Part shown: positions 21,018 to 58,121 of the stretch, one piece after another
Layout of the letters: each line of letters opens with the position of its first letter
Numbering within the stretch: the first letter of the stretch is position 1
Assembly: GCA_008704415.1 (NCBI GenBank)
Contig: VXIS01000025.1
Location: forward strand, 206,937-270,936
DNA length: 64,000 nucleotides
Reading direction: 5' to 3'
DNA from: Sphaerosporella brunnea
Lineage: Eukaryota; Ascomycota; Pezizomycetes; Pezizales; Pyronemataceae
The notes under the pieces: generated by a model
The model's database searches: none
The model's input: only the letters and a program-made list of their open reading frames with translations
Told to the model about the DNA's origin: nothing
Program-made: the position numbers and the translations under genes

Positions 21018-23699
21018 TCAACATCGTTTCTCATCTGTGAGGCCAATCTCCTTGACGAAAGCTGCGTGCTTGACTGATCCTAGCGGCTTTGTCAAACCAT
21101 CCGCCAACTGCTCTTTGCTTGTCACGTGTTCCAGCATCAGATCGTTGCTTTCGATGTGGTCACGTATGGCATGATATCGGATTCGTAGGTGTCTTGTTGC
21201 GTTCGGAAATCCGTTTCGGAGAGCGTTTTCACCGGCTGTGTTGTCACCTCGTAGGGTAATCGTCTGGCTGGCGTTTCCTCTGCCGATCTCGTGAGCGACG
21301 TCTCGAAGCCAGCTTGCTTGTCTATAGGCACTGTCCATGCCGATGAGTTCCGCCTCCATGGTGCTATGGGCTACCAATCCTTGCTTTTTCGTCTTCCAGA
21401 TGATCAGCGCCCCATTCAAGAATATCAGCCATCCAGACGTAGATCGTGCTCCATCCTGATCTCCAGCATGATCGGCGTCGGAATACGCGATGATTCCGTC
21501 TTGGCGATACTGTTGTCTGAGAAGCGCCAGCTCGAAATTGCGAGTTCCGTTGAGGTATCGCAGGAGGTGCTTGACAGCTCCCCAATGCTCGATCGACGGA
21601 TCGCTAGCATATCGTCCAAGGATCCCAGCAGCGTATGCGATATCTGGCCTGCTTCCGAGAGCTGCGTAGAGCAAACTTCCAATTGCCTGTCGGTAGAGGC
21701 CTTGATCACAAGCCTCTTCTTCGTCTTTTCGCGTGTGAGGCTTCCAGTTGCTCTGCATCGGGAGCAGCTTCCTTGCGCTGTTTTCCATCCCAAACCTGGC
21801 TAGGACCTTCGTTACGTAGGCCTCCTGCGATATCCATATTTGACGCTTCTCGCGGTCTCGGCGAATCACCAATCCGACATAGGTAAAGGTCGGTTCCGTC
21901 ACCACTCCCCCTTTTGCCTGGAATCGTCTCCGAAATTCCTGGCAAAGTAACTCTAGCTGGTGATTCGGTGCCGTGATTAGGATGTCGTCGACATATAGGT
22001 TGAGTATAACGTCGTCGCTGTAGTAAAGTCCTGGGGCCGACACAGACGCTCTCAGGTGCAGCTGGTTAACAATAAACTGGCTAACGTCGTTAAACCAGCA
22101 TCTCCCGCTCTGCTTCAAGCCCGGGACTGACTTCTGGAGTAAGACGACTGGTCGTTCCCTTGTCAATGGATCGTCTACCCACTTTGCTTTGGGAAGCTTC
22201 AGATACACCTCCTCTTTCAGCGTGGCTCCCAGGTATGCCGTAGGGACGTCCAATACAGCCACTTCCAGGTCCTGTGTGGCCGTAAAACTCAATGTCATGC
22301 GTATGCTTTCGGCGTCGACAACCGGAGACGTGATTTCATCGTATTCGTCAGGGGTCTGTAGGAAACCTCGTGCTACCAGTCGCACTTTGTACTTTTCAAT
22401 GGTTCCATCGGGCCTCTCCTTCACTATCATCACCCATTTCGCGTCAACGACGCGTTTCCCAGGGGGTGCGGTGTCCACGTATGTATAGACGTCATGTGAT
22501 TTCAGCGATTTCTGCTCTGAATCCAACGCGGACATCCACTCGCCCGCATCCGGGGCTGCCAGAGCCTCATCGTAGCTTTTCGGTCCTTGTGTTGCCAGGA
22601 GGACGTCGTCGTAGATCGTTCGAATCTCCTCGTTGTTGTCTGGCTGCTGCTGAATTCGTCGAGCATCGCCGCGCGTCCGTCCCAAATGGAGCTTGACCAA
22701 ATGGCCATTTACCTCGACTTCTTTCATTAGTCGCGCGTTTCGGGCTGATTTTGCTTCAGGTGCGGGAGATGCAATCCATTCTCCCGGGATCTGATTTGCT
22801 TCTTGGCCGCCTTCGTCGTTGTCGTGGTTAGCATGTCGTCTGGCCACAGGCGTGGCTGGTAGCTCCAACTGCTGCTGCAGATCTGGTTGTCTCCTCGCGT
22901 GTTGCTGCTGCAGCTCAGGTTGTCTCGACGCGTGTTGCTGCTGCGGCTCTGGCTGTCTCATCGCTTGTTGCAGATCCAGTTGTTCCTCGCCGTAGTCGTC
23001 AGACTCGTTGTTTACCATAATGGACGGGGTCATCGTCGGTCGTATGGTGTTGAGGTCTTTGTATAGTGTCTTTTCGTCGAATTTCACATCACGTGACTTC
23101 ACAATCTTCTTTCCCTCAACGTCGTATAGTCGGTAGTGGCCATCTGATCCTTCGTAGCCCAACATGATGCATTTTCTCGCTCGGTCTGATAGCTTGTGAT
23201 CCCTGACTTCGGCCGGTATTTGGGCATATGCTAAGCATCCGACTGTCCGTAGGTGGCCGACATCTGGCCTCTTACCAAATTTCATCTCGTAAGGGGTTCG
23301 AATCTGGCCATCTTTGCTCGTTAGGGCCGCATGTGGAACTCGATTTCGGATATAGCTTGCGGTTGATGCCACTTCTGGCCAAAACGCGTGTGGGAGCTCA
23401 GCATGCTTTATCATTGCACGTGTTGGGTCCAGGATCCCACGGTTTGTCCGCTCGGCGATGCCATTGCTCTGATGGCTGTAAGGAGGTGTGATCTCGTGGC
23501 GGATTCTCTTTGATGCGAGGAATTCGCCCATAGCGCGACTGTTGAATTCTCCGCCACCGTCCGTCCGAATAGCCTTGACTGGGCATTCCTGCGCTTGGCA
23601 GTATTCCTGTAGTGATCCAAGCGCGTCCGACTTCTTGCGCAGAAAATAGACTTCGCTCCATCGCGTGTGGTCATCCGTGACTACCAACATATACATCAT
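21018..23699 (-). CDS. copia Pol: integrase core, reverse transcriptase, RNase H
   Basis: An 893-codon frame. Residues 1-150 carry the integrase core: VVTDDHTRW, IRTDGGGEF and GIAERTNR supply the D, D and E. A Gln-rich linker of short tandem repeats (QQQHARRQPE type) lies at about 245-285. The reverse transcriptase follows with KARLVARGF-like KVRLVARGF, AYLGATLKEEVYLKLP and the catalytic LYVDDILIT. RNase H ends the protein with YSDADHAGD and KKQGLVAHSTMEAELIG. The frame is entered by a one-base shift near 23730 relative to the preceding frame, so the product as sequenced lacks a continuous link to the protease. Confidence 0.94.
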   Translation of the reverse strand: MMYMLVVTDDHTRWSEVYFLRKKSDALGSLQEYCQAQECPVKAIRTDGGGEFNSRAMGEFLASKRIRHEITPPYSHQSNGIAERTNRGILDPTRAMIKHAELPHAFWPEVASTASYIRNRVPHAALTSKDGQIRTPYEMKFGKRPDVGHLRTVGCLAYAQIPAEVRDHKLSDRARKCIMLGYEGSDGHYRLYDVEGKKIVKSRDVKFDEKTLYKDLNTIRPTMTPSIMVNNESDDYGEEQLDLQQAMRQPEPQQQHASRQPELQQQHARRQPDLQQQLELPATPVARRHANHDNDEGGQEANQIPGEWIASPAPEAKSARNARLMKEVEVNGHLVKLHLGRTRGDARRIQQQPDNNEEIRTIYDDVLLATQGPKSYDEALAAPDAGEWMSALDSEQKSLKSHDVYTYVDTAPPGKRVVDAKWVMIVKERPDGTIEKYKVRLVARGFLQTPDEYDEITSPVVDAESIRMTLSFTATQDLEVAVLDVPTAYLGATLKEEVYLKLPKAKWVDDPLTRERPVVLLQKSVPGLKQSGRCWFNDVSQFIVNQLHLRASVSAPGLYYSDDVILNLYVDDILITAPNHQLELLCQEFRRRFQAKGGVVTEPTFTYVGLVIRRDREKRQIWISQEAYVTKVLARFGMENSARKLLPMQSNWKPHTRKDEEEACDQGLYRQAIGSLLYAALGSRPDIAYAAGILGRYASDPSIEHWGAVKHLLRYLNGTRNFELALLRQQYRQDGIIAYSDADHAGDQDGARSTSGWLIFLNGALIIWKTKKQGLVAHSTMEAELIGMDSAYRQASWLRDVAHEIGRGNASQTITLRGDNTAGENALRNGFPNATRHLRIRYHAIRDHIESNDLMLEHVTSKEQLADGLTKPLGSVKHAAFVKEIGLTDEKRC

Positions 23700-24069
23700 G
23701 CCCGCATGTGATGCGGTCCGAAAAGGGCCGACCTAGATCGGCATGCACCAACTCTCCTTCCCTTGCTTTTCTCTTCAAGCTTTGCGGATCGGCTTTATAC
23801 GGTGTTTTTGTCATCTTTCCGCGCATGCAGCCATCGCAGATGCATTCGGCGTGGTGCCTTGTGTCTGTAACGTCGATTCCGGCTATGGCTCCTGAGCGGA
23901 CCGCCTTCGTGACGGCTGCGACTGCTAGGTGTCCGAGCCGGTTATGCCATTTCATTGCTGCTTCTTCTCGTCCCGACGTATAGACAGCGTTAATCAGTGT
24001 ATCGTGCGTCTCTGGATCTTCTGCGATGATGCAAAAAGGTCTTGTGGCGTATAGCCCCGTGAGCAACAA
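23671..24069 (-). pseudogene. copia Pol segment: GAG-pre-integrase zinc domain, frame-shifted
   Basis: Encodes the integrase zinc-binding region: WHNRLGHL then HAECICDGCMRGK. It is out of frame with the protease segment (break near 24060) and with the integrase core (one extra base near 23730, within the GTCGGCCC of the minus strand). The encoded sequence is otherwise well kept, so these look like single recent indels. Confidence 0.85.
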
Positions 24070-24481
24070 CAGCGCCTGTCGCTTTCTCTGTGATCGTAAC
24101 TGGGTGGCCGGGTAGCGAGTTGTAGTCCACCTTATACCCAGCTAGCAGCAGCTGGTATACGCTCAGCAAGTTGTTGGAGCCACATTCGGGGACATACAGG
24201 ACTCTTCTGAGGATGACTCGTGCAGGTGGAAGGTTGCTTCGCGGGAAGAGCAGTGCAATGTCGCCGATTCCTTTCGCGTCAACTGACGCGTCATTTGCGA
24301 ATCGGACCTTATGCTCCCCCTTTCGAAAGGCACGGTAGTTGACCCACCTCTGGTCTAATCCGGTGACGTGATTGGTAGCGCCTGAATCGGTAACCCATAT
24401 TCTCTCTTTTCCGTGCGGTTTGGCAGTCATCCTTCCGAAAGTGTCTTCATTGTCGGTTGCATCACTTGTCAACAGCAACAT
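23990..24481 (-). CDS. copia protease segment
   Basis: Carries the aspartic protease motif WVTDSGATNHVT and the family's LYVPECGSNNLLSV. Its first ATG overlaps the last codons of Gag: the two frames share a 13-base ATG...TGA overlap, the ATG lying one base back from the Gag frame. It runs into the next frame break after about 140 codons. Confidence 0.85.
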   Translation of the reverse strand: MLLLTSDATDNEDTFGRMTAKPHGKERIWVTDSGATNHVTGLDQRWVNYRAFRKGEHKVRFANDASVDAKGIGDIALLFPRSNLPPARVILRRVLYVPECGSNNLLSVYQLLLAGYKVDYNSLPGHPVTITEKATGAVVAHGAIRHKTFLHHRRRSRDARYTD

Positions 24482-25524
24482 CTCGGTTCAATTCCAACCT
24501 TGTCTTCGCCGGGTGGTGTAGCCGCGTATCCCCAGTTCTCTGTTGCATCCGTGAAGTCTGGCAATGGTTGATATTCGGATACCATCAGCAGGAAGTCAGT
24601 GTTCCTCACCGTCTTGGCCTCCGACGTTCTGGCCTCGGGCGTCTCCCCCTTTCGGTTCTTGGCGGGTTCGCGGTTCTCGTCCTCGTCTTGCGGTGGCTCC
24701 GTACAATTTCGTCTGATGTGGCCTTTCTTTCCACAGTTCCAGCATATAGGTCCGTATCCCCTTGTCCATTCTCCACGTGGGGTTTTCTTCTTCTCTTCTT
24801 TCGCGTACATAGCCGCATCTGCAGCGGTAGTAGCCTTCTTCGCAGGCATATATCGGTCGCATACTTCCATTCGCTGCAGGATCTTGGCAAGTCCGCAGTC
24901 TCCTTTTTCAATCATGTCCATCATTTCGGACCGAAACATTCCCCACTGCGGCTCGTCTGGCAGTCCGTTTCGCACAATCGTTGCCAACAGCTTATCATCC
25001 ATTGCTGTCCCGGCTGCCTTGCATAAGGCGACGTTGGCCAGTAAGCTGCTTTGGTATTCAGCGTGACTGCTGAAGTTCGCTCTCTTCGTCTCAAATAGCG
25101 CCGTCAACCCCGCCATCGGGTCTTGTTTTGCGGCCTGATCTTTATACGCGTCGGCCAACGCGTCCCACAACGCCTTAGGATCCTCCAATGCGTCGTCTTC
25201 TTCGTATATCATCAGTATGGAGCTGTGTAGGGTTGCGAGAATCAGCGCTTGCGCTCGCTGCGAATCTCCCCTGAATCTCGCGAGATCGGCGACATATCGA
25301 TACCAGTAGTTTAAGTACGTAGGATCGCTGCACTTCGGATCGTCGTCGTCGGTTGTCGTTGAAGTAATCGTTGATCCCTGCGGCACCACAGGTGGTTTCG
25401 GTTTCTTTCGCTCTCCGTTGATTAGGTCGTACAGTCCTGCTCCTTTCATATGGCGCTTCATCGCCTTCACCCACACAGGGTAGTTGTCTCCTTGGAGTAG
25501 CGGCACTTCCGTCTGTGTCGCCAT
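24469..25524 (-). CDS. copia Gag
   Basis: 351 residues, ATG at 25524. Begins with the copia Gag pattern (LLQGDNYPVWVKAMKRH), contains a helical capsid-like region to about 230, and a single CCHC zinc knuckle CWNCGKKGHIRRNC near residue 265. The frame stops at TGA after CCC, where the protease frame starts. Confidence 0.93.
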   Translation of the reverse strand: MATQTEVPLLQGDNYPVWVKAMKRHMKGAGLYDLINGERKKPKPPVVPQGSTITSTTTDDDDPKCSDPTYLNYWYRYVADLARFRGDSQRAQALILATLHSSILMIYEEDDALEDPKALWDALADAYKDQAAKQDPMAGLTALFETKRANFSSHAEYQSSLLANVALCKAAGTAMDDKLLATIVRNGLPDEPQWGMFRSEMMDMIEKGDCGLAKILQRMEVCDRYMPAKKATTAADAAMYAKEEKKKTPRGEWTRGYGPICWNCGKKGHIRRNCTEPPQDEDENREPAKNRKGETPEARTSEAKTVRNTDFLLMVSEYQPLPDFTDATENWGYAATPPGEDKVGIEPRCCC

Positions 25525-25599
25525 CGCTCCTTCTTCGGTTTCAAGCTTCTCTCGTCGTGTCTTCAGCGTCGACGTCTTCGTTAAGCTTCAGTCGTGTTT

Positions 25600-25929: not shown

Positions 25930-26141
25930 TGTTGACAGCAAGTTTCGTACGCAGCGGACACTAAGAGATGGGTGAAGAGATTGTATTGAAGGTAAGGTGC
26001 TAGTGACGCCGTTACTGCACCTTAGGTGCAGAAGCGGCTCACTAGCCTATACTCTAATCTAACTACATCCCTGACAGAGTTTATACTCGGTTACGCCATA
26101 GAGGGTAGAGTGATGCCTACGGCGTCACTCTACACTCAACA
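25930..26141 (-). repeat. 5' LTR of copia element
   Basis: 212 bp, partner of 20711-20922. On the minus strand it starts TGTTGAGTG and ends GCTGTCAACA. It should hold the element's promoter; no TATA box is obvious. Confidence 0.96.
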
Positions 26142-47263: not shown

Positions 47264-47345
47264 GGGTAAATGCCCGTGAACCCCACCATATCCCCGCTAT
47301 CCTTTGCGACAACGTCGTCGGAAGCACCCAAAACCACCCCAAAAA

Positions 47346-49262
47346 ATGCCACATATCAAGGACCGAACCTTTCAACTCAATATTGATCGCGAGGAGCGCT
47401 TCCAGAGAGCTCTAAAAGCACTGAAGGATGGTGTTTTCACCTCTATCGGGGAGGCGGCTACCGCATTCAACCTTCCTAAGTCTAGCCTCGGACATCGTCG
47501 CAATGGCCGGCAAACGAGGCAGAAAGCGCACGAGGGTGATCAAATACTCTCTCCTGCTGCAGAAAAGACAGTTGTGAAGTGGATACTCAAGTTAGACGAC
47601 TGTGGTTTTCCACCTCGTTTAGACCGTTTGTGGCAGATGGTGGAGAAGCTAGCGGTGCAGGAGCGAGCGGCCCTCAAAGCCCGCTACGAAGCCGAAGGGC
47701 GGAAAAACATAGTTCACGATACCATCGGCAAGAACTGGATCACACAGTTTCTCAACCGCCACCCAGTTTTAGCTGCGAAACTAGCCCGAAGGATAGATCG
47801 TCAGCGAGTCTTCGCCAGCAACGCTACGACCATCGCCGACCACTTCAGAAAGCTCGGCAAGATCATTCAGAAGGAGCGATTCCGTCCGCATCAGATTAGC
47901 AACGTTGACGAGAAGGGTATCATCCTTGGTTATTCTTCGAAGTCAAAAGTGATCACCCAGCGTGGGAAGAAAACACCTTACGTAAGGCAGCATGGACAGC
48001 GCGAGCTAGTGACGCTAGTCGAAGCAGTCTCGGCAAATGGCTATGTCTTTCCGACTTTCCTGATTACCAAAGGCACTGTGCATACCTACGGGCAATTTGG
48101 AAATATCAAAAAGGAGGATGCAGAAGTACGTTTTGGCAAGTCTCCGAAGGGTTGGACCGATGATGAGCTTGGGTTCCACTGGCTTAAGGACATCTACCAC
48201 CCCTACAGCCTTAAGCGCATCCAGCCCGGCGAGAAAAGGCTATTAATCCTCGACGGTCATGGTTCCCATATCACTTTAGAGTTCAGCGACTTCTGCGATG
48301 CCCATGACATCATTCTGTATTGTTTGCCGGCCCACACGACTCATCTGCTGCAACCGCTGGACGTGGGTCTCTTCTCCCCCCTGCAACAATATTACGGAAA
48401 ATTTGTGGAGGACTACTACCTCGCCACCAACGTTGGGATTAGTCATGCGCAGTTTCTCCCCATCTACAAGAAGGCACGAGAAGCAGCGTACACGCGGGAG
48501 AATATAGAAAGCGGTTTTAGAGAGACTGGAATCGTGCCCTTCAACCCCCGCCTCCTTTTGGACGGTCCAAACCTTCGCCGAACCAAAGCTTCCACCCTTG
48601 CCCCCACCGAGCCGGACCTTTTACTGGATAAGACTCCACAGACGAGGTGCCAGCTACGTCGCCGAGCTGTATACTCCATGGAGTGGATCAAAACAGCGAC
48701 GTATGGGCAGCTTTGTAAACATGTCCTGCGACTCAACAACGAGCTCGTTTCTGAAAAGGTTCAGAACGAAATCCTCACCAACGATATGCAGCATTTGAGG
48801 AACCCGTCGAAGCTCGCGAAGAACACCAAGAAAGACAAGCGAGTCATCAGCAAAGCGAGGGTTATCACTGGTGCCCAGGCCATGGAGGGTAAGAAGGCGC
48901 TGGACGAGAAGAAATCTATGTCTCGCCGCCGCCGCAAGACTCAACCCGCTGCCCCTGCTGCCCCCAATGCCCCGGATGCTCTCCCAGCAGTTCCTGCAAC
49001 CCCTCGACAAACTAAAGTCTGCTTTGTATCCCCTGTGTTGCCAGTAGAGACCCCTCGCTGCCCAGTCAACCGCAGCCGTCAAAAAGCCACTCCTCCACCA
49101 GACGACTGGTCTGACTCCAGCTCTGATGAAGAGACACCGGTGACCCCCCTAGGTCTGACGCGACCCCCGCGACCCCCCGTAGTCCTCAACACTCCTCTCG
49201 CTCCAAATAGACGGCTCCCTGATAGACCGTTAGCAGTGAACCTCAGAAGCAGGAAGAAGTGA
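47346..49262 (+). CDS. pogo-type transposase (DDD)
   Basis: 638 residues without introns or breaks. The ATG at 47346 is preferred over the first start of the open frame at 47304 because MPHIKDRTFQLNIDREE begins the conserved region. The N-terminus holds a psq-type helix-turn-helix (SIGEAATAFNLPKSSLGHR, about 33-55), then a CENP-B-like HTH (about 80-150, with WITQFLNRHP). The DDE_1 catalytic core shows D188 (SNVDEKGIILG), D303 (LLILDGHGSHIT) and D339 (LLQPLDVGLFSPLQ), i.e. DD35D spacing. The C-terminus (about 470-638) is basic and Pro-rich with RRRRK, a possible nuclear signal. The gene lies within matching 45-bp inverted repeats, so it can be presumed to serve its own element. Confidence 0.94.
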   Translation: MPHIKDRTFQLNIDREERFQRALKALKDGVFTSIGEAATAFNLPKSSLGHRRNGRQTRQKAHEGDQILSPAAEKTVVKWILKLDDCGFPPRLDRLWQMVEKLAVQERAALKARYEAEGRKNIVHDTIGKNWITQFLNRHPVLAAKLARRIDRQRVFASNATTIADHFRKLGKIIQKERFRPHQISNVDEKGIILGYSSKSKVITQRGKKTPYVRQHGQRELVTLVEAVSANGYVFPTFLITKGTVHTYGQFGNIKKEDAEVRFGKSPKGWTDDELGFHWLKDIYHPYSLKRIQPGEKRLLILDGHGSHITLEFSDFCDAHDIILYCLPAHTTHLLQPLDVGLFSPLQQYYGKFVEDYYLATNVGISHAQFLPIYKKAREAAYTRENIESGFRETGIVPFNPRLLLDGPNLRRTKASTLAPTEPDLLLDKTPQTRCQLRRRAVYSMEWIKTATYGQLCKHVLRLNNELVSEKVQNEILTNDMQHLRNPSKLAKNTKKDKRVISKARVITGAQAMEGKKALDEKKSMSRRRRKTQPAAPAAPNAPDALPAVPATPRQTKVCFVSPVLPVETPRCPVNRSRQKATPPPDDWSDSSSDEETPVTPLGLTRPPRPPVVLNTPLAPNRRLPDRPLAVNLRSRKK

Positions 49263-54206: not shown

Positions 54207-54740
54207 ATGACGGCGATGCACCTCCAACTCAAGAACGAGTCCTGTATTCCTGGTAGGTTCCAGAATTACTTGGGCAGCTGTTTCCATTCTTGCACGCAAA
54301 ACTAACATCTGTGCAGATTGACACAGTCTCGTGAGCCATTGCCTTTCATCGGGCTACACAGCGAGGTCGAACTTCTATAACAGAGTTCAAGCCCTACCGG
54401 TCTCCTCCAAGAACAACCGGCAAAACACTTCAGCGGCCGCAGCCAGAAAATGTCTTTCGTCGGCACAAATCTTGGCAGTTTTCTTGGATTCGGAGTTTGT
54501 TCTTTCCGAACATAAACAGCCTCGCAGAAGGCGTTTCTCGGTCCGTGGGTTCTTCCGAGCTGTTTGCACGGGGAAAAGGGCGTCGGCAAGGGTCCCTTTT
54601 CATCCTCGATGTCATCGAGGAGCACGGTGATGAAGCTGTCGCCAAGCTCTCCCCAGTTTGGAGTCCTGGTCGTTTTCCGTCCAGTCGACATCAGCAGCCA
54701 CACTAGCGATCAAGATGCTGTTGATAACAGCCTAACAGAC
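54207..54740 (+). pseudogene. SDR relic, copy A
   Basis: Starts MTAMHLQLKNESCIPG, resembling the first strand of an SDR, then a 63-nt intron (54254-54316) with CTAAC branch site and GTGCAG. After a stretch without similarity comes NSLAEGVS, the structured repeat, then ILDVIEEHGDEAVAKLS and, one frame over, FGVLVVFRPVDISSHTSDQD, the second beta strand region of an SDR. Confidence 0.6.
54539..54600 (+). repeat. structured repeat, copy 1
   Basis: Starts CGGTCCGTGGG, has short inner hairpin GTTC-TTCC-GAGC, then TTTGCACGGGG, then AAAAGGG and CCCTTTT around a 14-nt loop. Inner segment 13 nt; loop of the class with TCGGCAAGG. Confidence 0.85.
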
Positions 54741-54749
54741 GGCGTTCCT

Positions 54750-54772
54750 CGGTCCGTGAGCTCTTCCGAGCT
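54750..54772 (+). repeat. structured repeat, truncated copy
   Basis: Only the first third is present (CGGTCCGTGAG then CTCTTCCGAGCTG), after which the sequence passes straight into SDR coding sequence. It resembles copy 1 most and is preceded by the same NSL-(A/T)-(E/D)-GV context. Confidence 0.65.
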
Positions 54773-54940
54773 GTCGCCAAGCTCTCTGCCAAGTTCGGCA
54801 TCATCGCGTTCTACTATCAAGTCGACGTTCGGAACTTGAGGCGTACACAGGATGTCGCGTCGATGTCATCGTGAAGCAGTTTGGTCTTCCGTCGGAATCA
54901 ACAAAAAAAGCACCAGCTGTTGGCCTCAAGCTTTCAATAT

Positions 54941-55009
54941 CGGTCCGTGGGTTCAATGTAAAGAGAACTGTTTGCACGGGGAAAAGGGCGTCGGAAAGGG
55001 TCCCTTTTT
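54941..55009 (+). repeat. structured repeat, copy 2
   Basis: Same order of parts as copy 1 with the longer 19-nt inner segment: GTTCAAT-GTAA-AGAGAAC, in which two base pairs are lost. Loop of the TCGGAAAGG class; ends in five T. Confidence 0.85.
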
Positions 55010-55097
55010 ATTTTGCATGATTGGGATTATATTCCATCGACTTATGGGCGGCCCCGTTAACAAAGATGCCAAGAATCTTTTACCCACCTGGACAAGT

Positions 55098-55300
55098 TAA
55101 CCCTCGACAGCAAGATCGCTCCTGCGGTCTGGTAAGCTCAAATCCTCAACATTCTCAAAACCCAAAGCTAACGATGTTCTTTCTTTCAGGTAATGCCCGG
55201 AGTTAGGCAGCAACATCGCGGAGGCTTTGTGCGATGTCAACCTCAAGGCCTTCGTCATTTTCGACGTCCTCATGGAGAACTCACGCCAATCTTGGTTTCC
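55098..55300 (+). pseudogene. SDR relic, copy C (N-terminal Rossmann region)
   Basis: KLTLDSKIAPAVW leads to an intron of 58 nt (55132-55189, GTAAGC...GCTAAC...TTTCAG). The next exon gives GNARS, then after a one-base shift LGSNIAEALCDVNLKAFVIF, i.e. the glycine-rich NAD-binding turn and following helix and strand. Intron position matches that in copy A. Confidence 0.7.
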
Positions 55301-55346
55301 ATGAAGTCGATCTATCAGCACGAGCAAGTCCTCGATCTTACCATTT

Positions 55347-55415
55347 CGGTCCGTGGGTTCTCTGAAAAGAGAACTGTTTGCACGGGGAAAAGGGCGTCGG
55401 AAAGGGTCCCTTTTT
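55347..55415 (+). repeat. structured repeat, copy 3
   Basis: Inner hairpin is perfect: GTTCTCT-GAAA-AGAGAAC with a GNRA tetraloop. Loop of the TCGGAAAGG class; ends in five T. Confidence 0.87.
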
Positions 55416-55575
55416 ATTTTCAGTCCTCAAGGAGCTGAGCGTGGTGACAAATCTGTCACCCAGCTAGCTCTTTGCCGACTTCAGCATCCTTGTCGTTTTC
55501 CATCAAGTCGATGTTCGCAACCACATGAGCGTTCAGGATGCCGTTGATGCAACAATCAAGCAGTTTGATCACAGT
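55416..55575 (+). pseudogene. SDR relic, copy D
   Basis: Directly after repeat copy 3, AERGDKSVTQLA aligns with EEHGDEAVAKLS of copy A; after a frame change follows DFSILVVFHQVDVRNHMSVQ and AVDATIKQFDHSDI, typical SDR sequence around the acidic NAD-site residue and the next helix. The repeat stands at the same place relative to the SDR sequence as in copy A. Confidence 0.68.
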
Positions 55576-55694
55576 GACATAAGATCGGTGGCTCAATGAT
55601 CTTGATCGCTTCTATGCACGAGAGTGTACGTCGGTCCCAGCAGCAGTGTGACAAGGCCGGAATACTGTCGTTGCGTGTCCACTCTTCCCAAGAT

Positions 55695-55755
55695 CGGTCC
55701 GTGGGTTCTACTGAACTGTTTGCACGGGGAAAAGGGCGTGTGTTCGGTCCCTTTT
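55695..55755 (+). repeat. structured repeat, copy 4
   Basis: Short 13-nt inner segment with hairpin GTTC-TACT-GAAC. Outer stem and AAAAGGG/CCCTTTT stem kept; loop of the TGTGTTCG class. Confidence 0.85.
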
Positions 55756-55789
55756 CATTTACTCTCTACTTCGGGAGATATTTTTCGGA

Positions 55790-55985
55790 GGTGTAGGCTG
55801 CCTGAAAATGTGGCCATCCTCCGTGTTCCTGACGCCAGCACCTACATGACTGGTTCGGACATCATCATCGACGTGTGTTGTCACCAGTTCCGGGTATTGC
55901 TATCAGTGCTAATCTTTTCTAGGGAGAAATACTCGGCATTGGGAGCCATTGTGTGCTCGACTTCACCGTTCTCGGTCCGTGGGTT
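55790..55985 (+). pseudogene. SDR relic, copy E (C-terminal region)
   Basis: PDASTYMTGSDIIID matches the conserved SDR C-terminus. It is followed by a 50-nt intron-like segment (55873-55922, GTGTGT...GTGCTAAT...TTCTAG) and GEKYSALG where SDRs have a GGY motif. Confidence 0.68.
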
Positions 55986-56040
55986 CTCTGCAAAGGGAAC
56001 CGTTTGCACGGGGAAAAGGGCGCGTGTCTGGTCCCTTTTT
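55973..56040 (+). repeat. structured repeat, copy 5
   Basis: Inner hairpin GTTCTCT-GCAA-AGGGAAC, again with a GNRA loop and one G-T pair. Loop class CGTGTCTG; ends in five T. Confidence 0.87.
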
Positions 56041-56183
56041 ATTTACTCATCCATGGCTCTACACCGCTTCCATCCATGAGCAGTCATATCGTCAACTGGC
56101 CCCAGCAGCAGTCTACAAGGAGATGCATGTTAGGCCTCAACCATGGGCGTTCGCGATCATCGGGTGTTTCAGCTTTTCATAGT

Positions 56184-56251
56184 CGGTCCGTGGGCTCACT
56201 GCAAAGCGAGCTGTTTGCACGGGGAAAAGGGCGTGTGTTTGGTCCCTTTTT
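56184..56251 (+). repeat. structured repeat, copy 6
   Basis: Inner hairpin GCTCACT-GCAA-AGCGAGC; relative to copies 3 and 5 the second pair changes from T-A to C-G on both sides. Loop class TGTGTTTG; ends in five T. Confidence 0.87.
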
Positions 56252-56284: not shown

Positions 56285-56400
56285 CGAGCTGAACAACTGA
56301 TTGCCTCCTACTCGGATGTCCTGGCTTGTGCGTGTTGTCCCCAATTTTGGATATTTCCACTTGTGCTAACCGATTCCAGGCAGGCTACACCGCCTGGTAA
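56285..56400 (+). pseudogene. SDR relic, copy G (C-terminal end)
   Basis: SYSDVLA, then a 52-nt intron-like segment (56328-56379, GTGCGT...GTGCTAACC...CCAG) and AGYTAW followed by TAA, close to the usual SDR ending. The intron occupies the same place as in copy E. Confidence 0.62.
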
Positions 56401-58121
56401 TCGTGAAATTCTGGGCGTTCGAAGTTATTGGCCCGCACATCAAGTCATAATTTGGGCCCGGACCAGACCCCACCCTCAGGAAACACACAGGAAGTCAAAA
56501 CGATCCTCAAACCTGTCGGTTGACTGGAGGGATTACAGACATGAGTAGATCGTGGCGCATCGGACAGAAGATGCCCCCTGGTGTACGCGAAAACTTGGAA
56601 AGCATCAGAACCTTCGGGAGAAATTGATGGACTGGGTCGCAGGCTTTGACGGCTGATGCTAGCTAGAGGATGATCGTCGCGAGGTCTACCCTTGCGAAGG
56701 CTTTGCGCAAGAAGTGTGGTTTTGCATCGAAGAAAAAGGGCACCGTCGTCAACTTGAAAGCAACATACGTTGCAGAAAGTGTTTTCTAGTTCTTCGGAGG
56801 GTTCTTCAAGGTGGCCTCAGCTCAGTATTGCTAGTAGCCAGCCCCCGTCGGGCGGCAATTGGGCTGGTTGGGCTACAGAAAAAAGACGGATGGGCTGTGT
56901 GGGCTGCAGCCATTGACGGGCGGGCTCGCTGGCAGGTTTGACGCTGCTGAATACAAATAGAACAATTTCAATCGATGTACAGACCTTAAATCTCTTTGCT
57001 CCGTAGAGGTAGATACTATGTGATGTGAGCGGCCTCTTTTTTGATCCCCGTCCGTCAGTAGGGTCGGCAGTGACTGGTTCCATCAGAAGCCTAACCTATT
57101 GCCGCCAGTGTTGTCAATAACCATCCCTATATAACAGTCGCAGCCTTAGCGGCTCCCTTAAGAAGCCAACCGAAGGGATTAACAATGGGTGACTTCTGTG
57201 AGACTTTAGAACGGGTTTGGAACATGTAATTGAGAAGCAGAATCTGGAAAATCTCAATTATCCAGGCAGCGCACCACATCATCATGCAGAAGCTGCGTTC
57301 CAAAAGGGTGATTCAGTTCAGCATTTGGAACGTTAGAACCTAAAATTTTGCACCCAATGAAGCGCAGCCAAGCTGCTGAGGCAACGAGTGATTTTCAGTG
57401 AAGTAACCACCCCCCATCCTTCATGCTTTCCCGTTTCTCCACAGATAATTCTCGACCCTACATAACTTAGCAGGCGTGGGGGTGTTTTTTTTTTTGGAAA
57501 ATGGTTATGCAATAGTTATGTGGCTATGTTTGCCAATTCTAAGCTGAGCCAATAGGCCAGAACGGTATCATGTAATGCAACTTTGGTATCGAGAGCTTAT
57601 ATGCCCTGCTTTTCTCCGCATCCACGCCGCGGCGGACACCATCCCCGCCAGGCGCTAACCGTCATCATCGTCGAGTCGTGCACCCGCTTGTCGCCTCGCC
57701 TCAACCCCCCGAAAACTGAGGCGAGATGCAGCATGAAAAAGTAACCGGGAAATGTGGTGGCGATGCCGAAGCTCGTGACAGATATATGACTGATTGGTTG
57801 CAAAAAAACTCAACACCATTGCTGCCACGGCGCCCCTGCTAGGTAAGGTATATATCTGCCGGCTGGGCGGGCTATTGACAACACTGGTCCAGCAGCAGCA
57901 GCAGTTCACTGGCATATGCGTTGCTGAATAACCGCTTGCACTGGAGGGGTCTGGGGTCGAGCTGCTGGCTGGTGAGATTCGCCCTGGTCCGTTGTTTTTA
58001 TGTAGGTATGTAGCCCGCCACGCGGCCTTTTTGGGCAATGGACAATGAGGAACACCGCGCTGCAAGCTATACTAATATCCCGGTCTGTCTTATGCGATAA
58101 AATCCCCCCCCCATATATCGC
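56401..58121. other. intergenic
   Basis: No supported gene. A T run lies near 57486-57495. The right end is the 3' flank of the amidohydrolase gene. Confidence 0.6.

Follow-up and report, generated by a model that had tools for sequence, protein, structure and literature searches.

Arrays of a folded repeat unit among sense-strand pieces of host genes in Sphaerosporella brunnea

A unit array and its gene pieces in the window

The window is a stretch of 64,000 nucleotides (nt) from the genome of the fungus Sphaerosporella brunnea (contig VXIS01000025.1, positions 206,937 to 270,936 of the forward strand), in which a short structured unit, repeated at 54539-56251, alternates with pieces of a short-chain dehydrogenase (SDR) gene. 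A preliminary description, made from the letters alone, had reported this unit in six full copies of 61 to 69 base pairs and a truncated seventh, each in plus orientation; copy number, span, lengths and orientation are all confirmed. The six full units run, also as described, from CGGTCCGTGGG to GTCCC followed by four or five T. The 18-nt core TTTGCACGGGGAAAAGGG was searched for with up to three mismatches and is found six times in the window, each time exactly, compared with 0.07 matches expected by chance; none of 100 shuffled sequences reaches six. The earlier observation is right but understates the case, and the interpretation that went with it is partly supported, as detailed below.

The spacers between the units include pieces that are 72-96% identical to an SDR gene (Pfam PF13561 and PF00106), an intact paralogue of which lies at locus C367 (L032, reverse strand). 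The order of the pieces is scrambled, and segments of the gene are repeated. The features of the array are as follows, with scores for the covariance model R1 described in the next section and blastn identities to the C367 locus:

54539-54600, plus strand: structured unit 1, 62 nt, R1 68.0 bits
54600-54725, plus strand: SDR gene piece, sense, C367 positions 1145-1272, 78%
about 54749-54774, plus strand: truncated unit 2, 3' part missing
54770-54886, plus strand: SDR gene piece, sense, C367 positions 1180-1294, 72%
54941-55009, plus strand: structured unit 3, 69 nt, R1 77.3 bits
55079-55280, plus strand: SDR gene piece, sense, C367 positions 966-1170, 75% over 208 columns
55347-55415, plus strand: structured unit 4, 69 nt, fold z -3.03, R1 80.3 bits
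55423-55570, plus strand: SDR gene piece, sense, C367 positions 1156-1294, 79%
55586-55616, plus strand: short SDR gene piece, sense, C367 positions 1509-1539, 87%, a weak match (E 1.6e-4)
55695-55755, plus strand: structured unit 5, 61 nt, R1 81.2 bits
55829-55924, plus strand: SDR gene piece, sense, C367 positions 1802-1898, 80%
55973-56040, plus strand: structured unit 6, 68 nt, R1 86.5 bits
56073-56113, plus strand: SDR gene piece, sense, C367 positions 1534-1574, 85%
56184-56251, plus strand: structured unit 7, the last, 68 nt, R1 83.6 bits
56272-56298, plus strand: short SDR gene piece, sense, C367 positions 1757-1783, 96% over 27 nt (E 3.6e-6)
56374-56409, plus strand: short SDR gene piece, sense, C367 positions 1891-1926, 83%, a weak match (E 1.6e-4)
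56849-57003, plus strand: dispersed repeat (outer limits about 56845-57010) with 36 genome matches, itself included, and a sharp start near TAGTAGCCAGCC

Judged by eye, truncated unit 2 apparently lost its 3' part through a deletion between two GCTGT repeats, one inside the unit and the other in the next gene piece. The SDR piece at 55079-55280 crosses the site of the first intron of the parental gene (exon 1 ends at 1020 and exon 2 starts at 1079); because the intron position is covered, the source of copying was DNA or unspliced RNA.

Copies in the genome and a conserved fold

The unit is not confined to the window. In the S. brunnea assembly searched (50.57 Mb, 640 contigs), the core was matched, with up to two mismatches, at 152 places (47 forward, 105 reverse), mostly grouped in arrays on one strand, compared with 0 and 0 matches of a reversed-pattern control; a gapped exact pattern occurs at 87 places. 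Passages of the report on the ectomycorrhizal strain Sb_GMNB300 of this member of the Pyronemataceae give 51.6 Mb in 872 contigs and deposited stranded poly(A) RNA-seq (PMC6908789). From 101 genome copies, chosen by the presence of both conserved ends, we made alignment A1, and from it the covariance model R1. The genome search with such a model, which the preliminary description had proposed, yielded 153 matches at E≤0.1 in 33 sources (241 kb), nearly all of them picked for holding core matches. The 124 matches at E≤1e-8, from 32 sources and with scores of 56.3-93.6 bits, form the working set A2.

The preliminary description knew of no described element of this form, and no Rfam family reaches its gathering score in the window or in 10 array loci. 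On a 2-kb and a 171-nt stretch, Rfam matches at E≤10 are at chance level, and no covariance model of the small self-cleaving ribozyme families matches at E≤10; ARAGORN predicts no tRNA in 20 array loci. Bacterial genomes contain an exact 19-mer of the unit in three stretches, about the number estimated for chance, and their best R1 score is 17.9 bits, compared with 56.3-93.6 bits in A2; viral contigs gave 0 matches to the unit. Both scans may omit records close to the genome of the window. In a protein search, an open reading frame (ORF) of an array had one match and the deposited protein P0001 had 12, itself included, all from S. brunnea, which is weak evidence that unit arrays are absent from other species. 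Among the publications listed by term, no title or abstract describes such arrays; fragments of the unit sequence occur in four publications that, judged by title, deal with unrelated subjects.

In the fold shared by the 124 copies, helix P1 (UCCGUG paired with CACGGG) is combined with the variable hairpin P2 and with GUUUG, which stays unpaired; helix P3, with a 12-nt loop, comes directly afterwards. P2 starts with GGG and varies in length by single nucleotides among the 124 units, and the unpaired GUUUG is exact in 110 of them. P3 has about eight pairs, with the CCCTTTT strand as its 3' side; its loop is 12 nt long in 116 units, starts with CGUG in 87 and ends with GGU in 114. The outer stem, the inner hairpin and the AAAAGGG/CCCTTTT pairing that had been suggested are all present, and P2 and P3 covary in the 101 copies of A1. 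P1 is nearly invariant, so that covariation neither supports nor refutes it.

In A1, 95.8% of 2016 cells are paired, compared with 30-62% once the partners are slid. Changes on both sides of a pair occur in 109 cells, compared with 29.4 in shuffled alignments (none of 500 reaches the observed number) and at most 33 in the slid controls; the changes are concentrated in P2 and in one P3 pair, which goes from C-G to A-U in 21 sequences. Across the 124 units, pairs 3-6 of P2 are paired in 437 of 492 cells (366 when shuffled, with a maximum of 384 in 1000 shuffles), and pairs 4-6 of P3 in 354 of 372 (319 when shuffled, maximum 330). Among 2104 helix cells, mostly Watson-Crick pairs, G-U was found 91 times and A-C 34 times, an excess that is expected when the strand of the unit, and not its complement, folds. 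Eight copies folded singly gave z values of -0.98 to -3.50; the full set of 124 averages -1.49, and 62 of its copies lie below -1.5, whereas the family means of 36-nt windows in the flanks range from -0.75 to 0.52 (mononucleotide shuffles).

Hairpins seen by eye beside the unit in some arrays were rejected because the flanking windows fold about like shuffles (mean z of -0.75 for eight upstream windows of SET-type units and -0.37 to 0.08 for the other unit-adjacent windows). A coding role of the unit was also rejected, since the length of P2 varies by single nucleotides and no frame is kept. In coiled-coil-type arrays at L011, L014, L018 and L026, and more weakly at L022, the 5'-most unit is of a distinct subtype, with an AAAAGGG-like/CCCTTTT P3 and CGTCG in the loop, similar to several units of the window.

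Host genes, orientation and exchange of flanks

Pieces of the SDR gene also occur in arrays at C25, C203 and C268. The array at C110 carries 10 pieces of the C478 gene (nine by a stricter count), none on the minus strand; this gene is labelled SET-like from recognised sequence words, and Pfam did not confirm the label. Pieces of the coiled-coil gene family MGN, which has at least 40 genome matches, arrays included, make up the largest set of arrays. Proteins similar to this family (L057-L061 and others) came only from S. brunnea in the protein collection searched. The array at C2 has pieces in common with C434 and is broken by a retroelement piece (a label of our own). A repeat of about 212 nt in the window, at 25930-26141 (C168:232866-233077), is one of at least 10 copies that are 92-94% identical to a stretch inside the C2 array (40 of 913 candidates were scored). 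For the three parents that were tested (SDR, SET-like and MGN), the pattern is one host gene per array.

Pieces in, or no more than 300 nt from, 29 arrays with 118 units were counted; the queries were the SDR gene, the stretch at C478 and, for MGN, the gene parts of two copies. All 70 non-overlapping parental pieces (37 MGN, 24 SDR and 9 SET), from 22 of the 29 arrays, lie on the strand of the units; seven arrays yielded no piece. The paralogues examined are free of the unit: 11 SDR-related loci gave 0 matches at E≤1; five MGN loci contained no unit, all six matches of that search being in the array locus L056; and with filters off no match above 8.8 bits was found in seven loci including C478 (C367, C478 and the five MGN loci were examined as stretches of about 3 kb each). 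At L022, the first unit of an array adjoins what appears to be a 5' untranslated region from the host family; at L023, a near full-length gene copy is preceded by two units.

The SDR gene pieces seem to be under relaxed constraint. In 15 hand-picked SDR pieces, substitutions amount to 13.2, 10.8 and 26.0% at the three codon positions, compared with 12.6, 10.4 and 38.9% and with 17.4, 11.8 and 41.8% in two open-frame paralogues (a third paralogue offered only 167 aligned nt); the weaker excess at third positions suggests the relaxation. Gaps that are not multiples of three make up 41 of 46 in the pieces, and also 17 of 20 and 19 of 20 in the paralogue alignments.

The unit is more conserved than its surroundings. 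Downstream flanks were alignable over at least 100 nt in 156 of 7626 unit pairs, involving 73 units, with a mean identity of 80.5% in the flank, 92.2% in the unit core and 85.7% in P2. In the 155 pairs with a flank identity below 97%, the core reaches 92.2% and the downstream flank 80.4%, and the core is higher in 150; for the upstream flank, the core is higher in 145 of 152 pairs. Flank identity, being taken from local alignments, is overestimated, if anything. With up to 30 units compared per family, mean core identity is 90.6-94.6% within families and 85.9-92.7% between unrelated gene families. Among 92 MGN-type units (one of the 124 units was dropped for a short flank), correlations were found between the left flank and P2 (r=0.34) and between the right flank and the 3' half of the unit (r=0.41). 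The weak link between left and right flanks (r=0.08) indicates that flanks have largely been swapped across the unit, an outcome to be expected of crossing-over or conversion within its near-identical part.

Several further observations concern the surroundings of the arrays. Paired arrays that face away from a common centre occur at L024 (4692-5600), L016 (3147-3599) and L022 (3805-9337) and look as if they shared a bidirectional start. Coiled-coil-type arrays at L010, L011, L013, L014, L017, L019, L020, L022 and L025 have, on one side or the other and at most a few kb away, a degenerate minisatellite whose core is CCGAGTGATCAACCCCGTCC or the reverse complement of this sequence. The dispersed repeat at about 56845-57010 of the window comes after three of the four SDR arrays (window, C203 and C268) and may not belong to the element; its copy at C357 (L068) lies directly 3' of an apparent stop codon. 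Elsewhere in the window, and labelled by recognised motifs only, are ORFs resembling a Copia-type retroelement (21018-25587, minus strand) and a pogo-type transposase (47280-49262, plus strand).

Possible nature and origin of the unit

We tentatively read the unit as an RNA domain that acts in cis and is carried on the sense strand of host-gene copies which have been rearranged and in part duplicated, and not as a free-standing small-RNA gene; on sequence evidence, this reading appears plausible, if somewhat short of probable. A domain embedded in transcripts would explain, with the fewest additions, the fold kept on one strand, the sense placement in arrays of at least three unrelated gene families, the absence from the paralogues examined and the conservation above that of the surroundings. 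We infer that the arrays would be transcribed as long RNAs, that the nearly invariant unpaired parts would be recognised by a protein or by the RNA itself, and that the unit would have a function and bring a benefit. Unequal recombination or gene conversion in the near-identical 3' part of the unit may duplicate and reshuffle the adjoining gene pieces, which would explain the scrambled, repeated segments of one gene per array. The first unit at L022 and the two upstream units at L023 would suit a leader or processing signal.

A number of points weigh against a transcript-embedded RNA domain. Gene conversion alone could yield the higher conservation of the core, and covariation is also expected of a folded single-stranded DNA. 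In the covariation test, two of the five measures are not above the shuffles (pairs with a change on both sides, 43 of 500; further pair types, 273 of 500), and the slid control is biased in favour of the structure, since A1 was chosen by both conserved ends and the structure was drawn from A1. The correlation between left and right flanks of MGN-type units, weak as it is, was reached by only 3 of 500 permutations. Searches with whole parental loci give minus-strand matches in some array loci. Most of these fall outside the arrays or within an adjacent array of opposite direction, but one of 43 nt, which corresponds to L061 flank sequence past the gene, stands immediately behind the L011 array. 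The 70 sense pieces stem from three gene families, and the arrays are not independent, so that the sense rule may reflect as few as three events. Deposited gene models also conflict: P0009 appears to treat a unit as an intron, and P0001 and P0012 treat units as exon.

This conflict bears on the strongest rival, an intron-derived or introner-like element, for which a sense orientation is predicted as well. The unit and part of its flank would be, or would have been, a multiplied spliceosomal intron with the T run as its polypyrimidine tract. Such an origin, which we consider unlikely, is consistent with the placement of all 70 pieces in sense, the stable structure and the paralogues without units; P0009, read against L020, appears to splice out a unit from CG|GTCCGT, acceptor-like text such as TTTTTATTTTCAG follows some copies, and a donor-like motif of the GTATGT type lies within 45 nt downstream of 42 of 93 MGN-type units. 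The same downstream motif is found at 0 of 29 SDR and SET units, however, and the donor of the unit itself would be GTCCGT, weak against the fungal consensus. The branch point CTRAC occurs in 0 of 124 units and CTNAC in one; there is no common acceptor, the first AG after CCC standing at a median of 19 nt compared with 15 in a control stretch (n=123); and removal of the units would not bring back the parental gene order. As a complete intron the unit was rejected, lacking a branch motif and a common AG. Introner-like elements and sister stwintrons of fungi, as presented in passages of PMC9024468, resemble the unit in being structured, nearly identical and numerous inside the genes of a single narrow taxon; the unit differs in having no branch-point motif or common acceptor and in forming arrays of scrambled pieces instead of clean insertions into intact genes.

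The T-run end had earlier been likened to an RNA polymerase III (Pol III) terminator or the end of a small RNA, and in that case each unit would belong to an independent, arrayed small-RNA gene of about 65-80 nt with its own promoter. The many copies, the self-contained fold and the conservation of the unit would fit such a gene, as would the four or more T in a row that follow CCC within the unit in 88 of 124 copies (92 when a few more bases are counted). The run is short in the other 36, however; an A box and a B box are each found in 0 of 124 units (a B-box match occurs in three when 100 nt are added to the unit); and a TATA-like motif stands in the 60 nt upstream of 4 of 124, compared with 3 of 124 in a control stretch. 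With an inconstant T run, no boxes and no excess of TATA, a Pol III small-RNA gene is not supported, as far as sequence can tell, and the T run gives no clear support to a terminator or to the end of an independent small RNA. Together with the negative tRNA and Rfam searches, and with units that lie sense between gene pieces, as would be expected of an element embedded in transcripts more than of a gene standing by itself, this leaves an independent small-RNA gene quite unlikely, though a processed RNA of 60-70 nt is conceivable.

Integron attC arrays consist of oriented sites that fold in a strand-specific way, leave some bases unpaired and carry a terminal hairpin that varies; the unit arrays share the single orientation, the strand-specific fold, the unpaired bases and the variable hairpin. 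A site of recombination or mobility that acts as single-stranded DNA, comparable to attC or to HUH hairpins and with the gene pieces as cassettes, would also fit the exchange of flanks across the unit. Against it, each array draws on a single parental gene, as far as the three tested parents show, and not on diverse cassettes, the host is a eukaryote, and ordinary homologous recombination in the identical core suffices; no integrase is known here, although no search aimed at recombinases was made. Target-site duplications gave no signal (at least four matching bases in 18 cases compared with 21.0 when shuffled, n=123), and a mobile DNA element making such duplications was rejected on this count; we regard a single-stranded DNA site as very unlikely. 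The base before the unit is a T in 97 of 123 cases, so that the conserved element may begin one base earlier. A functionless repeat also seems very improbable; on that view, a hairpin sequence arisen by chance would have spread along with duplicated genes in decay, and gene conversion would have kept its copies alike. The gene pieces are indeed scrambled and diverged, and the cores are most alike within families; yet the same core occurs in unrelated gene families, and compensatory changes keep P2 and P3 paired despite differences in sequence, which conversion alone does not explain.

A more speculative extension, in our estimate quite improbable, is a self-spreading RNA, which would be neither a classical intron, nor a short interspersed element (SINE), nor a DNA transposon. 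Such an RNA would insert at the RNA level into sense nuclear transcripts, as reverse splicing would, and return to the genome, where its identical core would expand the host copy into oriented arrays of units and gene segments.

Rickettsia palindromic elements are short structured repeats dispersed within bacterial genes. The unit shares with them its shortness, structure and position in genes; it differs in being arrayed, in sense in every counted case, not frame-kept, and in a fungal nuclear genome. The structured non-coding RNA candidates of Li and Breaker (PMC5640933) are comparable as conserved RNA motifs of fungal genomes, some of them regulatory. No motif name in its outline suggests the unit, in a comparison by name and not by sequence, and the words tandem, copies, pseudogene and Pezizomycetes are absent from its main text.

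If active in transcripts, the unit would be a covarying RNA motif present in many copies in the nuclear genome of a fungus, and the natural variants among the 118 arrayed copies would show which of its unpaired bases matter. The unit is relevant to the spread of structured elements into genes and to the origin of tandem arrays of gene fragments.

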